Assembly (NCBI RefSeq): GCF_900129985.1
Contig: NZ_FQXN01000001.1
Location: 372,001-436,000, forward strand
Direction: 5' to 3'
Source of the DNA: Thermosipho atlanticus DSM 15807
GTDB lineage: Bacteria > Thermotogota > Thermotogae > Thermotogales > Fervidobacteriaceae
DNA: 64,000 nucleotides
A model generated the notes under the pieces. The model was not told where the DNA came from. It did not search any database and saw only the letters and a program-made list of their open reading frames with translations. This document shows, one piece after another, positions 29,779 through 35,416 of the stretch; the first letter of the stretch is position 1; each line of letters begins with the position of its first letter. The translations under genes and the position numbers were made by a program.

Positions 29779-30978
29779 TTAAAATTTCTTCAGATATTCT
29801 ATTTGTTCTTGTGTGAGGTGATCGATCTTTATACCTAAGGTTTTGAGTTTCATATAAGCAACTTTTTCATCAAGCTCTTTTGGATAATCGTAAACTTTAT
29901 TATCAAGTTTTTGATAATTTTCTGATAGATACATCAAAGATAAAGACTGTAAAGCAAATGAAAGATCCATTATTTCTATTGGATGTCCATCTGCAGCAGC
30001 CAAGTTTACTAATCTTCCTTCACCAATTACGAATATAGTTTTTCCATTTATTTTATATCCAGTTACATTTGTTCGGGCTTCAAATTTTTCTTCTGCCATT
30101 TCTTCGATTTTTTCCATTGGTATTTCTACGTTAAAATGACCAGCGTTGGCTAGGATTATACCGTTTTTCATTTTTAAGATATGTTCTTCTTTTATTATAT
30201 CTCTATTTCCCGTTGATGTTACAATTATATCTGCAATTTCCACTGCATTATCCATATTTAATACTTCAAATCCGTCCATCAAAGCCTCTATTGCTTTTAT
30301 CGGATCAACTTCCGTAACAATAACATGGGCTCCTAATCCTTTTGCTCTCAATGCTATTCCTCTACCACACCAACCGTATCCTGCAACAACTACTTTTTTA
30401 CCAGCTATTAGTGAGTTTGTATTTCTCATGATAGAATCCCATGTTGATTGTCCTGTTCCGTATCTATTATCAAATAAGTGTTTCATTCGCGCATTATTTA
30501 CCGCTATTACCGGAACTTTTAATTTTCCTTCATTTTGTAGAATTTTTATTCTTCTTACTCCTGTTGTTGTTTCTTCAGATATTCCTTTAAGATTTTCCAA
30601 GACTTCTTTTCTTTCAGTATGGGCGATTACTGTCATATCAGCGCCATCATCTAATATTAAATCGGGCTTATGATCTAACACTTTGTGAACAGTTTTTAAA
30701 TATTCATTCTCATCATGTGTTCTTTTGGCATAAACTGTAATTCCCATTTCAGCTAATGCTTGTGCCACATCATCTTGAGTAGATAATGGATTACAACCTG
30801 TTGCAATTACTTCGGCTCCTAGTTTGTGTAAAGTTATAGCAAGATATGCTGTTTTTGCTTCCATGTGGATTGCCATTCCTATTTTCCAATTTTTAAGTGG
30901 TTGTCCCATTTTACTTATTTCGTTAAGAAGGGGCATATAGTTTGCTACCCATTCTATTTTCTTTTTACCTGTACTCAT
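29779..30978 (-). CDS. ahcY: S-adenosylhomocysteine hydrolase
   Basis: Splits S-adenosylhomocysteine into homocysteine and adenosine, pulling SAM-dependent methylations forward and feeding homocysteine to the genes upstream in the operon. 399 residues, the short form also found in other thermophiles. Seen motifs include MAIHMEAKTAYL, ILDDGADMTVIAH, SEETTTGVRRI, the NAD-binding VVAGYGWCGRGIAL and GRLVNLAAADGHPIEIMD. The ribosome site is gggaggaaa. It lies 22 bp after the operon methyltransferase gene. Confidence 0.95.
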   Translation of the reverse strand: MSTGKKKIEWVANYMPLLNEISKMGQPLKNWKIGMAIHMEAKTAYLAITLHKLGAEVIATGCNPLSTQDDVAQALAEMGITVYAKRTHDENEYLKTVHKVLDHKPDLILDDGADMTVIAHTERKEVLENLKGISEETTTGVRRIKILQNEGKLKVPVIAVNNARMKHLFDNRYGTGQSTWDSIMRNTNSLIAGKKVVVAGYGWCGRGIALRAKGLGAHVIVTEVDPIKAIEALMDGFEVLNMDNAVEIADIIVTSTGNRDIIKEEHILKMKNGIILANAGHFNVEIPMEKIEEMAEEKFEARTNVTGYKINGKTIFVIGEGRLVNLAAADGHPIEIMDLSFALQSLSLMYLSENYQKLDNKVYDYPKELDEKVAYMKLKTLGIKIDHLTQEQIEYLKKF

Positions 30979-31000: not shown

Positions 31001-31732
31001 TTATTTGAAAATTGCTTTGTAAAGATTTATTATCTTTCCATCAACTTTACAATAGGCTTTCATTGGTTCAACCTTCACGTCTTCGAACAATTTTATCCCC
31101 ATGTTTTTAATTTCTTCACATGAAAATCCAAGGTGTGTATCTTTAAGTGTTTCAGCAAGTTCTTTGTAACTATGTTTTAAAACATCAACTATAATAATTT
31201 TACCTCTTTTTTTCAGGACTTTTTTCATGCTGGTTAGAACTTCTTCGGGTTCTAAGAAATGATGAAAAGCTAAAGTGGTAAAAATAGCATCAAATTCTTC
31301 AGGTATTTTTGTTTTGTAATACTCATTAAAAATTTTGATAGAATCTTTAATTTTTTCAGCTACTCCCCAGACAATTGAAATACCATTTTGTTGAAGGTTT
31401 TTTAGCATACCTGGTGTTATATCTAAAGCAAAAAGATGAATTTTTATTTTGTTTTTTTCCAATTTCTTTTTAACTTTTTCTGTAAAAAATCCTGAACCAG
31501 CTGCGACATCCAAAACCGTTAGTTCATTTTTGTTAAGTGCTGATAATTCATTAGTAATTTCATCAATAATTGCTTCAATACATTCTTCATCAAGATAACC
31601 TCTTACAATGTTGTCTCTTATCTCTGCTTCACTTTCAAAATAGTTAATTTGTTCTATAAATTCGTTTATGAAAGTTTCGTCAAAAGAGAGTTTTTTTAAA
31701 AATTTTTTAATTTCGTTTGTTGTAACGGTCAT
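31001..31732 (-). CDS. SAM-dependent methyltransferase in the transsulfuration operon
   Basis: 243 residues. An N-terminal helical part (about 1-70) precedes a class I methyltransferase fold with VLDVAAGSGFF (73-83), LFALDITPGML, the FDAIFTTLAFHHFLEPEEVL region and KRGKIIIVDVLKHS. It overlaps the gamma-lyase gene by four bases (ATGA), so translation is coupled. Placed between cysteine-making enzymes and ahcY, it probably generates the S-adenosylhomocysteine that enters the pathway, but its acceptor is unknown. Resembles UbiE-like enzymes only in the general fold. Confidence 0.8.
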   Translation of the reverse strand: MTVTTNEIKKFLKKLSFDETFINEFIEQINYFESEAEIRDNIVRGYLDEECIEAIIDEITNELSALNKNELTVLDVAAGSGFFTEKVKKKLEKNKIKIHLFALDITPGMLKNLQQNGISIVWGVAEKIKDSIKIFNEYYKTKIPEEFDAIFTTLAFHHFLEPEEVLTSMKKVLKKRGKIIIVDVLKHSYKELAETLKDTHLGFSCEEIKNMGIKLFEDVKVEPMKAYCKVDGKIINLYKAIFK

Positions 31733-32886
31733 GCTTTCACCGCCGTAAAACCTCGTTCTAAATCATCAATTAAGTCTTCCACATCTTCTATACCAACAGA
31801 TACTCTTATTAATGAATCACTAATTCCAACTTTTATTCGTTCTTCCCTTGGGACTGATGAATGAGTCATTAAAGCAGGTAATTCAATCAATGATTCAACA
31901 CCACCTAAACTTTCAGCTAAAAAGAAAAGCTTGAGGTTTTCAACAAACTTTATTGCCATATTTATATCGCCTTTGAGTTCAAAAGAAAGAATACCACTAA
32001 ATCCTTTCATTTGTTTTTTTGCAAGTTCATATTGTGGATGTGAGGGTAGTCCTGGATAATGTACTCTTTTTACTAAAGGGTGATTTTCTAAATATTTGGC
32101 AATTGTTTGTGCGTTTTTTTCATGTTTTTCCATTCTTACTGAAAGTGTTTTAATCCCTCTCATTGCAAGCCAGGAACTAAATGGATCCAATATTGCTCCA
32201 ACTGCGTTCTGATGGAATTTTAATTTTTCGAATATTGCCTCGTTATTAAGCATTATGGCTCCTCCAACAACGTCGGAATGTCCGCTTATATATTTTGTAA
32301 TGCTATGTAAGACAATATCGGCACCTAAATCGAGTGGATTTTGAAAATATGGGCTTGCAAAAGTATTATCAACGACCACAATTATTCCTTTACTTTTTGC
32401 TATTCTTGAGATTTCTTTTATATCAGCAAGTTTTAAAAGAGGATTGGTAGGACTTTCAATCCATATTATTTTTGTATTTGGTTTTATTTCTTTTTCAATG
32501 TTTTCTAAAATTCTGAAATCTACGTAACTAAATTCTATGCCAAAACGTTTCATAACTTGTTTAAAGAGTCTTTTTGTTCCACCATATAAATCATCAAAAG
32601 CAATGACATGATCACCCTCTTTAAGTAAAGATAGTAAGATGGTAGTTTCCGCAGCTAATCCGGATGAAAACGCTAAAGCGTATTTAGCATTTTCAAGTGC
32701 TGCAAGCTTTTTTTCTAAGTTATCTCTTGTAGGGTTTCCGCTTCTTGAGTAAACGTATTCTTCATCAATTTGCTTTATACTAGTTTTTGCAAAAGTTGTA
32801 GCAAAATGAACTGGGGAAACAGCGTCACCATATTGAAGTTTTTTGGGATCTTCGCCTATATGAATTGCTTTAGTTGAAAAATTCAT
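31729..32886 (-). CDS. Cystathionine gamma-lyase/synthase-family PLP enzyme
   Basis: 385 residues of the Cys/Met metabolism PLP family. The PLP lysine is K198 in HSITKYISGHSD. Other motifs are YSRSGNPTRDNLEKKLAALE, FSSGLAAETTILL, the stacking tyrosine in FDDLYGGTKRLF, and VVDNTFASPY. Gamma-lyase and gamma-synthase cannot be told apart safely by eye; next to a cystathionine beta-synthase and ahcY, the lyase role (cystathionine to cysteine, 2-oxobutyrate and ammonia) is the natural reading. It overlaps the upstream and downstream genes by four bases each. Confidence 0.88.
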   Translation of the reverse strand: MNFSTKAIHIGEDPKKLQYGDAVSPVHFATTFAKTSIKQIDEEYVYSRSGNPTRDNLEKKLAALENAKYALAFSSGLAAETTILLSLLKEGDHVIAFDDLYGGTKRLFKQVMKRFGIEFSYVDFRILENIEKEIKPNTKIIWIESPTNPLLKLADIKEISRIAKSKGIIVVVDNTFASPYFQNPLDLGADIVLHSITKYISGHSDVVGGAIMLNNEAIFEKLKFHQNAVGAILDPFSSWLAMRGIKTLSVRMEKHEKNAQTIAKYLENHPLVKRVHYPGLPSHPQYELAKKQMKGFSGILSFELKGDINMAIKFVENLKLFFLAESLGGVESLIELPALMTHSSVPREERIKVGISDSLIRVSVGIEDVEDLIDDLERGFTAVKA

Positions 32887-34034
32887 TTTAACACCTCCAA
32901 AATTTTTTTGTCATCAATTTCTAAATTATGTTTTAGAAGCCATTCATCGTCATATACTTTTGTGAGATAATTTCTTCCAGTATCTGGAAAAATTAGGACA
33001 ACTTTTTTATTCCTAATATTTTTTTCTTTAAGGTATTTTAATGTTCCAAATAAAACTGAACCTGATGAACCTCCGGCTAAAATTCCCTCTTTTTTTGCTA
33101 AAAAGCGTGTCATTGAAAATGATTCTTGATCATTAACAACAACAATATCATCTATTAAATCCAAATTTACTGTAGCTGGAATTATATCTTCTCCTATTCC
33201 TTCTACTAAATAGGTTCGTGCATGTTTTACCGCCTCTTTCACTGACATTCCATGTTTTACGAGGTTGTATATTGAACCAATTGGATCAATCCCAATTATT
33301 TTGGTGTTACTTACTTTTTTAAGGTACATTGCTATTCCAGTAATTGTTCCACCTGTACCTATACCAGCGAATACATAATCAATTTCACCATTAAACTGTT
33401 CCCAAAGCTCTTGTGCGGTTGTTTCATAGTGTGTGATAGGATTGTATTTGTTGTTGTATTGATTGGGAATATATGCATAAATAGAATCTTCAATTTTTTC
33501 ATTCAAAATATTTTGAAGTTCATCTAATTTTTCTTCGTTTACAAGCGATTGAACAAATGAAACAATTTCTGAAAGTTCTTCATCATTTAAGAATCTTTGT
33601 TTTTTTGTGATCAAAATTTTAACAACTTCAGCAACTTTATAGTATGAATTTGGGGCATCAGGGGCTACCTCTGTTGGTGCTCTAATAATGAAGGCTCCAA
33701 GTGCTTTTAACAAAATTTCCTTTTCTAAACTTACTTTTGTCGGCATTGTAAAAACCATTTTGTATCCTTTGTTTATAGCTGTTAAGGCCAATCCAACGCC
33801 AGTATTTCCTGATGTTGGCTCAATAATAACTGTTCCTTCAGTAATTTTCCCTTCATTTTTTGCCTTTTCGAGAATAAATTTTCCAATTCTATCTTTTATA
33901 CTTCCACCTGGGTTCAAAAATTCTGCTTTTATATAAATTTCATTATTAACATTGAAGTAATTTTCTATTTTATTTAATCTGATTATTGGTGTTTTTCCAA
34001 TAATGTTAGTTATGCTGTCATAAACGTTTTCCAT
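32883..34034 (-). CDS. Cystathionine beta-synthase (cysteine synthase family) with an insertion
   Basis: 383 residues from ATG 34034, which has ggaggtgt upstream; the longer in-frame reading up to 34106 has no ribosome site. PLP lysine K47 lies in NPGGSIKDRI, and EPTSGNTGVGLAL and AGGSSGSVLFG are the phosphate-binding loops. The segment PDAPNSYYKVAE followed later by YIPNQYNNKYNPITHYETTAQELW is typical of cystathionine beta-synthase rather than CysK. These two parts are separated by about 45 extra residues (roughly 139-186, helical, charged) not found in ordinary members. No CBS or heme domains are present. It condenses homocysteine with serine. It is the first gene of a four-gene reverse transsulfuration operon with a long regulated leader. 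Confidence 0.85.
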   Translation of the reverse strand: MENVYDSITNIIGKTPIIRLNKIENYFNVNNEIYIKAEFLNPGGSIKDRIGKFILEKAKNEGKITEGTVIIEPTSGNTGVGLALTAINKGYKMVFTMPTKVSLEKEILLKALGAFIIRAPTEVAPDAPNSYYKVAEVVKILITKKQRFLNDEELSEIVSFVQSLVNEEKLDELQNILNEKIEDSIYAYIPNQYNNKYNPITHYETTAQELWEQFNGEIDYVFAGIGTGGTITGIAMYLKKVSNTKIIGIDPIGSIYNLVKHGMSVKEAVKHARTYLVEGIGEDIIPATVNLDLIDDIVVVNDQESFSMTRFLAKKEGILAGGSSGSVLFGTLKYLKEKNIRNKKVVLIFPDTGRNYLTKVYDDEWLLKHNLEIDDKKILEVLK

Positions 34035-34088
34035 GTTCTTACACCTCCATGTATAAAGTATTAGTGTTTTGCATTGATAGGAAAAATT

Positions 34089-34106
34089 CAACAACAACAA
34101 CAACAA
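34089..34106. repeat. (CAA)6 trinucleotide repeat in the cysteine operon leader
   Basis: Six perfect CAA units on the plus strand, which read as (TTG)6 in the operon mRNA, about 55 bases before the start of the beta-synthase gene. In one frame this gives the five-Cys tract. Confidence 0.9.
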
Positions 34107-34242
34107 TAGAAGGGTTTAAACGTTAAATGGCATTTGGTGTTAAAATGTTTGAAAGGGTGTAAAATGGGGATCACAAAAGGGAAAAATCCTTTTCCGGAAG
34201 GAATTTGTGAAAGGATTTGAAGTTTTTTAATTTTTAAGTTAC

Positions 34243-34281
34243 TTAAAGTTTTTTTATAGCTATTGAAAAAACGCACCCCAT
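34243..34281 (-). CDS. 12-codon leader ORF of the cysteine operon
   Basis: ATG 34281 stands nine bases after a near-perfect Shine-Dalgarno (aggaggtgg, 34290-34298 region), the best ribosome site in the neighbourhood, about 30 bases after the predicted transcription start. It reads MGCVFSIAIKKL and stops at 34243. It has one Cys at position 3. A run of seven A's near its end matches the A-AAA-AAA slippery form and lies five bases before the stop; a -1 slip there would enter the five-Cys frame. Leader peptide function is inferred from position and ribosome site. Confidence 0.5.
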   Translation of the reverse strand: MGCVFSIAIKKL

Positions 34282-34315
34282 AGAAATCCACCTCCTGATT
34301 AGTCTTACCTAATTA

Positions 34316-34344
34316 AAGATATCATAACTTAGCTAAGTTGTCAA
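34316..34344 (-). promoter_or_regulatory. Promoter of the cysteine operon with operator-like palindrome
   Basis: On the minus strand TTGACA (34344-34339) and TATCTT (34321-34316) are 17 bases apart, with TGA before the -10 (extended -10). The spacer contains the perfect 14-bp palindrome AACTTAGCTAAGTT (34326-34339), overlapping one base of the -35. Its position is ideal for a repressor that blocks RNA polymerase. Confidence 0.75.
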
Positions 34345-34552
34345 GTATAATTATTTTATTTTGTCCTTTTTATGAGAAAATTAAAGTTAAAGATGATTTG
34401 AAATAGTTTGAATTTTCAAGATTTATTAGTACAATTAGCTGATGAAAATGACTTTATTTTATAAATTAAGATTTAATTGTGTAAAAAAAGTCATATTTGT
34501 ATATAAGAATTCGTTTATAATATTTTTGAAAAGTAGAAAGGAAGGATTTTGT

Positions 34553-35393
34553 ATGTCACAAGAATTTATTGAATGTATTAAAAATTCAATAAATTATATA
34601 GAACAAAATCTTTTTGAAAATATACATCTTGAAGATGTTGCAAAAAGTGCTCATATGTCTGTTTCGTTGTATTCGAAAATATTCAAAAATTTATTTAATA
34701 TTACCGTCAAAGAATACATTATCAAAAGGCGTATGTCGTTTGCTGCAAAAGATTTAATATTTACAAAAGATAGTATTTTAAAAATAGCTTTAAAATATGG
34801 TTACTCAGGGTATGAGCAGTTTTCTCGAGCTTTTAAAAAGTTATATAATGTTTCACCATCTGAATTTAGAAAAAACGGTATATATGTTAATGTTTTTCCA
34901 AGAATAACCTTAAAAATTAATACTAGTTGTGGAGGTGAAGTTATGAAAGAAATGGAAAATGAACATGTATCAAGGTTGTTGAAAGATGTTAAAGGGGGCT
35001 GGATACTTGATATTGATATTGATCATTTTGCAGATATTAATAATGTTTTTGGTAGAAAAATTGGTGATCTTGTATTGATAGAAATTTCAAAAAGAATAAA
35101 AAAAGTACTTAAAGAAGGTTCGATTGAAACAGACGTAATTAGAATTGCTGCTGACGAGTTTATAGTGGTTATGAAAGGAAAAAATGCAGATTTTGTAAAA
35201 AAAAATATCTCAAGATATATTAAAACAAGTAGAAAAACCATTTGAATTTGAGGGAGTAAATTTAAAAGTAACAGTATCAATCGGAATTGCAGAGTTTACA
35301 ACAGAGGTTGGGGAGGAAAAAATAATCAAAAATGTTAGAAATGCCATGCTATTAGCAAAAAAAGATGGTAGGAATAAGTTTAAAATTAACTAA
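34553..35393 (+). pseudogene. AraC-type HTH fused to a degenerate GGDEF domain, frameshifted at A9
   Basis: ATG 34553 (aaaggaagg upstream) begins an AraC-family DNA-binding domain (about 1-110) with the two HTH motifs LEDVAKSAHMSVSLYSKIFK and ILKIALKYGYSGYEQFSRAFKKLYNVSPSEFRK. A diverged GGDEF domain follows (LDIDIDHFADINNVFGRKIGDLVL), where GGDEF reads AADEF. The frame stops at 35245, but the domain continues in the +1 frame (VEKPFEFEGVNLKVTVSIGIAEF to KFKIN, stop 35391-35393). Reading eight instead of nine A's at 35197-35205 restores one 279-residue protein. It may be a real mutation, a sequencing error or a slippage-rescued gene. The degenerate motif suggests no cyclase activity. It is divergent from the cysteine operon and could be its regulator. 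Confidence 0.75.
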
Positions 35394-35416
35394 AAATCCC
35401 CCGGAAGGGGGATTTT
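35393..35416. terminator. Bidirectional terminator between the AraC-GGDEF gene and the ABC exporter
   Basis: A 10-bp perfect stem (aaaatccccc with gggggatttt) closed by a ggaa tetraloop. A and T runs on both sides let it serve both converging genes. It overlaps the restored stop of the plus-strand gene. Confidence 0.9.

Follow-up and report, generated by a model that had tools for sequence, protein, structure and literature searches.

A candidate cysteine-gated -1 frameshift cassette in the leader of a cystathionine beta-synthase-like operon and at cysE in Thermotogota

In the hungry-codon frameshifting described in E. coli by Gallant and others, an empty A site promotes slips of the P-site tRNA, a slow A site generally mattering more for +1 than for -1 shifts (PMC5009743). 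This is an error process, and the sections of that 2016 recoding review devoted to it know of no functional use of it in starvation (PMC5009743). By the account of prfB (release factor 2) in the same source, a conserved cassette with an upstream Shine-Dalgarno sequence (SD) undergoes a +1 shift at a stop codon, driven by a scarce A-site reader and needed for a protein of the same circuit, and in the ermC leader telithromycin brings about a frame change within a short open reading frame (ORF) that sends ribosomes into the spacer and on to the next gene, the signal being the drug and the response an unfolding of RNA (PMC5009743, section 28). Poly-Cys short ORFs of mycobacteria, as portrayed in the part of PMC4633059 that concerns them, have Cys codons clustered at their ends before sulfur genes, are leaderless and involve no frameshift. 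In our search of the open-licence full-text literature, we found neither frameshifting at cysE nor frameshifting upon cysteine starvation described. Work by Canestrari et al. in 2020 reportedly concerned the poly-Cys leaderless short ORFs of mycobacteria.

We analysed a stretch of 64,000 nucleotides from Thermosipho atlanticus DSM 15807, the whole of which is called the window here. On its minus strand lies an operon that begins with a PLP enzyme of the cystathionine beta-synthase / cysteine synthase group (32883-34034; best profile TIGR01137 with 381.6 bits, under its cut-off of 510), hereafter CBS-like, and continues with a gene of the cystathionine gamma-synthase/gamma-lyase family for which no equivalog cut-off was reached (31729-32886). 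The operon also includes a SAM-dependent methyltransferase with a weak match (31001-31732; best BioC, 55 bits) and an adenosylhomocysteinase with a profile match over cut-off (29779-30978). A gene at 34442-35395 is presumably composed of an AraC-type helix-turn-helix start and diguanylate-cyclase-like sequence; its frame stops at 35245, the matching sequence seems to go on in another frame, and the gene may be frameshifted.

The leader of the operon was laid out along the minus strand and compared with the leader of the CBS-like gene of G019, a genome of another genus (L005, treated below). A consensus scan placed a sigma-70-type promoter-like site at 34316-34344 (TTGACA-17-TATCTT, with TG before the second hexamer); with 7 sites found against 6.0 expected the scan is weak evidence taken alone, and the promoter-like region is kept in L005. 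A perfect palindrome, AACTTAGCTAAGTT (34339-34326), has the final base of the first hexamer as its own first base and takes up most of the spacer between the -35 and -10 hexamers; L005 retains it in part only. Between the -10 hexamer and the SD we found the dyad ATTAG-N6-CTAAT (34298-34313), a probable repressor operator, which recurs before cysE in the same genome (L002), before sufC of G001 (L003) and, with one arm imperfect, in L005. Two Rrf2-family proteins over cut-off are encoded in the window's genome, and the dyad may be the site for a regulator of the Rrf2 type. Its presence at the CBS operon, cysE and sufC (G001) suggests that one repressor could act on cysteine and Fe-S genes, and an operator common to cysE and sufC suggests a transcriptional layer besides the frameshift proposed here.

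Downstream of the dyad, the SD AGGAGGTG (34289-34296) is followed by a frame-0 leader ORF of 12 codons, MGCVFSIAIKKL (34243-34281; AUG at 34281-34279, stop at 34245-34243), whose single Cys is at codon 3, and it is this ORF that the strong ribosome site drives, as the original prediction had stated. Its first three codons, AUG GGG UGC (34273-34281), form an element that was recognised by its recurrence at cysE starts and in CBS leaders: the P-site GGG (34278-34276) is re-pairable one base back on GGG (34279-34277), and the A-site UGC would be the sensing Cys codon. After such a slip the -1 frame is open for 62 codons plus stop (34088-34276), beginning GTG CGT and ending TTC TAT (TGT)5 TGA, that is, YCCCCC before a stop at 34090-34088. 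The five consecutive TGT codons directly before a stop, from which the original prediction had started, are thus present (34105-34091). The ORF list opens this frame at a GTG within the SD (34291), so that the 67 aa given there are an upper bound. A mini-ORF, ATG GAG GTG TAA (34039-34050), overlaps the SD of the CBS-like gene.

To find the same leader in relatives, we searched the proteins of 103 Thermotogota genomes for homologues of the first operon gene (E <= 1e-60), which yielded close homologues of the CBS-like protein in 6 genomes, the window's own counted. The protein of G019 is 80% identical to the window's, and its leader, L005, has an SD, AUG GGG UGC, a 12-codon MGC ORF, MGCIFLIDHKRF, and a -1 frame of 63 codons that ends in Trp-Tyr-Cys3-stop (YCCC). 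The distance from start codon to start codon is 247 nt in both leaders and that from the stop of the -1 frame to the CBS-like gene is 53 nt in the window (ATG at 34034) and 50 nt in L005, so that the architecture is kept while most of the intervening leader has strongly diverged. The comparison originally proposed, between a retained Cys-run frame and a mere repeat, therefore comes out in favour of a frame kept in a related genus. Variation in repeat length, which had been put forward as evidence against it, has no weight, since the repeat unit has three bases and a change in length cannot alter the frame; the weight of the conservation rests on the diverged part of the leader. With dinucleotide shuffling, the 56 codons from slip site to Cys run stayed open in 222 of 5000 shuffles (4.4%) of the window leader and the equivalent 59 codons in 74 of 5000 (1.5%) of L005, which makes either open frame an uncommon chance event; the two results are not independent because the leaders are homologous. 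Neither such a leader nor a poly-Cys leader precedes the CBS orthologues of genus g32, which account for 4 of the 6 homologue genomes (L038-L041), and a scan of genome contigs with the CBS protein gave a sole close homologue, L034, whose contig ends before its leader. L034, a contig of 4.3 kb assigned to a Thermococcaceae MAG, is likely mis-binned or transferred; its CBS-like gene has 70% identity to that of the window. Within the otherwise diverged middle, TTCCTTCCGnnAAAGGA is common to L005 and the window (about 34180-34205) and is possibly a small hairpin.

Searching the genome with the leader gave as second place the cysE-cysK locus (L002; 83% identity over 59 bases, from operator to slip site), where a CysE of 191 aa is encoded in the -1 frame relative to an AUG GGG UGC ORF, and a pattern search with direct inspection found the same arrangement at cysE in other genomes of the window's family. 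We then located cysE in 77 of the 103 genomes (84 places) and ran a strict test on 83 places, requiring an SD, an ATG, optionally two codons, and a frame-0 NNG GGR TGY, and that cysE be read in the -1 frame. The strict element was found at 41 of the 83 places across Thermotogota (by family: f1 18/19, f2 5/6, f3 8/8, f5 1/1, f8 8/8, f10 1/19, f9 0/18, f11 0/3, f6 0/1). It is thus at every cysE place of f1, f3, f5 and f8, one paralogue excepted, and since all places of f3, f5 and f8 pass and all but one each in f1 and f2, the requirement for G-GGR-TGY selected no minority there. The other 42 places are without the strict element, 40 of them without any form found here, and the element is therefore not essential. 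The frame-0 ORFs at cysE have 5 to 24 codons (e.g. MGCVIL, MLVGCVNL, MVSGCGCCSERL..., MKLGCLNT).

Two leader forms were found beyond the strict test. In G052, the frame-0 ORF is MKPGCKEK and a 44-codon -1 frame ends overlapping the cysE GTG. In G100, the frame-0 ORF is MGCCGKLR and the -1 frame ends ...TCRCMCTF, with its stop 85 nt before cysE and a mixed Cys cluster near its end (TGT AGA TGC ATG TGT), so that in G100, as in the CBS leader, the slip site is coupled to a Cys cluster, which in G100 is no simple repeat. When Cys-cluster frames were sought upstream of other cysE genes, most of those obtained were unconnected. L080 (G102) has a TGT TGT TGT stretch before cysE with no clear start codon, and was left out of the evidence.

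We examined the anatomy of the element in the 41 strict cases. The Gly codon is GGG in 31 and GGA in 10, always with a G before it, so that Gly-tRNA can re-pair on GGG one base back; in the two-codon forms the codon before Gly varies (GTG, CTG, TCG, and CCG in G052) and its last base is always G. The codon after Gly is Cys in 41/41 (TGC 38, TGT 3). An A-site TGY is unable to re-pair on the shifted GTG/ATG (RTG), which excludes a tandem slip and requires an empty A site; the canonical tandem slippery heptamer X XXY YYZ is absent from the element, which allows a P-site slip only. As far as sequence can tell, the GGR-TGY arrangement is built as one would expect for a -1 slip when the A site stands empty at a "hungry" cysteine codon. 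As in programmed -1 frameshifting, the frames overlap, with the product in the -1 frame (41/83 cysE places, and the CBS leaders of 2 genomes), and the re-pairable slip site is conserved (GGR to GGG in 41/41). Among family f1, eight bases, ATGGGGTG, are identical in 20/20 elements (18 cysE starts and 2 CBS leaders), the ninth base of the slip block is the same in 19/20 (one TGT), and most flanking columns vary. That ribosomes enter the poly-Cys frame by slipping back one base within the strongly initiated short ORF, as originally suggested, is likely, but not at the site then named: the A-AAA-AAA run is in the window and not in L005, whereas GGGG-TGC is in both. The conserved slip site is G-GGG-TGC at codons 2-3, which also occurs at cysE of the window's genome and of many relatives.

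The specificity of the pattern was assessed by several searches. In one, over 103 genomes, 13/14 matches were cysE starts; further searches placed 14/18 matches at cysE, 10/16 at cysE (8) or CBS leaders (2), and 12/17 at cysE starts (10), a CBS leader (1) or a cysE leader (1). The -1-configured matches outside cysE and CBS were L128, L145 and L149, each inside a gene whose frame is the -1 frame, and L148, at the start of a gene that we take to be polC-like, with an SD spaced for the -1 ATG. All remaining outside matches were in other frames. A looser SD pattern applied to family f1 gave 14 further places, all inside other genes or without a long -1 frame beginning there. When the slip arrangement was sought with any A-site codon in 337 ORF regions (window and loci), 31 cases were obtained, 30 at cysE and one at L128, a count which, the loci having been picked largely for cysE, only shows that other genes there are without the arrangement.

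From these data we consider it probable that a -1 ribosomal frameshift cassette gated by cysteine, the same as at cysE, is present in the leader and that shortage of Cys-tRNA drives its slip. Translation would begin at the AUG that the strong SD serves, the first codons being AUG GGG UGC. With Cys-tRNA plentiful, the Cys codon would be read and translation would stop after 12 codons; with Cys-tRNA scarce, the A site would stand empty at UGC, Gly-tRNA would slip from GGG to GGG and the -1 frame would be read. At cysE, the slip itself would turn on the enzyme for the first step of cysteine synthesis, serine acetyltransferase. Ahead of the CBS operon, it would open the leader frame of about 62 codons, whose Cys run lies some 50 nt from the first gene; a ribosome that translates this poly-Cys leader and then pauses in it probably shields the operon mRNA or makes it accessible. 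How this happens is the weakest step, and our guess is that ribosomes cover the mRNA against Rho or decay and that the Cys run serves as a second pause. Sequence itself shows that the cassette exists and recurs, and gives its frames, SD spacing and conservation; we infer that the slip occurs, that Cys shortage is its driver and in what way the leader frame would raise expression of the operon.

The genes might also be reached without any change of frame, if cysE and the leader frame started at a GTG or ATG overlapping GGR TGY and the upstream ATG ORF were a decoy that lowers initiation. A GTG or ATG is rightly placed in the -1 frame of every element, and where no extra codons intervene (f1, f8) this start is 11-17 nt from the SD, so that weak direct initiation at GTG may occur there; G005 has an in-frame ATG (ATG ATG AAT GGG GTG). 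The SD register spacing is, however, 6-11 to the frame-0 ATG (mode 8; 20/27 genes of the window lie at 6-9) against 11-21 to the -1 start, and in the two-codon forms (f2, f3, f5, G073) the SD is 17-20 nt from the -1 start, which makes direct initiation of cysE implausible there. An overlapping start also leaves unexplained the invariable GGR preceded by G and the invariable frame-0 Cys codon, and we hold it to be rather unlikely. Still less likely, in our judgement, is a constitutive programmed -1 frameshift that keeps CysE low by its fixed rate and does not use the Cys codon as a sensor. An upstream SD stimulates -1 shifts elsewhere, on the account of dnaX given in Atkins et al. 2016, but every strict element has a Cys codon in the A site, the genes it precedes belong to cysteine metabolism, and a UGY codon cannot join a tandem slip.

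The Cys run alone could instead sense Cys-tRNA, as in attenuation of the mycobacterial poly-Cys type, with frame entry incidental. The leader does have a Cys-codon cluster in an ORF before a sulfur operon, the run is kept in L005, the G100 leader has its own Cys cluster, and Cys-rich uORFs are described in mycobacteria (PMC4633059, in part). Yet the slip element is the only initiation route to the poly-Cys frame, the 41 cysE elements are without a Cys-run leader, and neither an RNA switch nor a terminator was found in the window leader: there were 0 terminator-like hairpins in 33900-34700, no intrinsic terminator/antiterminator of the kind used in transcription attenuation by leader peptides was seen in the leader, whole-leader folding was no better than shuffles (z 0.65), and folding with ribosome placements gave no consistent change in the pairing of the operon SD and no SD-sequestering switch. 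We regard this explanation as unlikely, though with a real chance of being correct. Cys-tRNA is still the likely signal, as the original prediction held, while attenuation itself found no counterpart in a terminator, an Rfam family or an SD switch, and that prediction as a whole is partly supported. Lastly, (TTG)n may be a simple repeat or unstructured spacer with a frame open by chance: (TTG)nA automatically yields Cys codons followed by TGA, and 4.4% and 1.5% of shuffles stay open. The frame register, the 247-nt length and the MGC start are nevertheless kept in L005 despite divergence of the leader, and an independent, non-repeat Cys cluster occurs in G100, so that this has very little probability.

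Other candidate mechanisms were rejected. Rfam gave no riboswitch or T-box family at gathering score (five weak matches were to unrelated families). In a coarser fold, placing a ribosome at the frame-0 stop had made the SD less accessible, an effect that vanished with a narrower footprint and at other positions, leaving the switch unproved. For Rho-dependent termination, the C-over-G bias is strong in the window leader only (22.6% C, 6.5% G) and not in L005 (18.6/15.8), and no conserved site was shown.

Set beside the described systems, the proposed cysteine-gated switch would work most like the autoregulation of release factor 2, and its leader form like telithromycin-induced ermC frameshifting, as far as the cited sections of the review allow the comparison. 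With prfB it shares the upstream SD, the conserved cassette and a scarce A-site reader; prfB shifts +1 at a stop codon and senses release factor, whereas the Thermotogota cassette would shift -1 at a Cys codon and sense aminoacyl-tRNA, with its slip at codons 2-5 of the message, unlike prfB. The ermC leader answers a drug by RNA unfolding, while for the CBS leader the proposed signal is Cys-tRNA and no RNA switch was found. The likeness to hungry-codon frameshifting is the P-site slip next to an A site left empty at a codon short of aminoacyl-tRNA; in contrast to that error process, the site in Thermotogota has been conserved and lies at genes for biosynthesis. Compared with the mycobacterial poly-Cys ORFs, which are leaderless, the CBS leader has an SD-driven ORF and would be entered by a -1 shift. 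The frameshift mechanics would thus be known in kind, and gating by an amino acid would be new.

On balance we favour, somewhat less firmly than the cassette itself, the view that this is a natural cis-element, widespread in one phylum, which holds an enzyme out of frame behind the codon of its own end product, starvation itself causing the -1 shift, and that a second operon later acquired it, the shifted frame there being a poly-Cys leader that can sense the same amino acid once more. Confirmation would make it a natural gene switch in which a change of reading frame reports the shortage of an amino acid, and the conserved cysE cassette in many Thermotogota would be a functional use of starved-codon frameshifting. 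No sensor could be simpler, since it would consist of the ribosome, a single Cys codon and a few consecutive Gs. As a compact genetic part, the cassette would be directly testable in E. coli, and the CysE start sites predicted in these genomes would probably be wrong.
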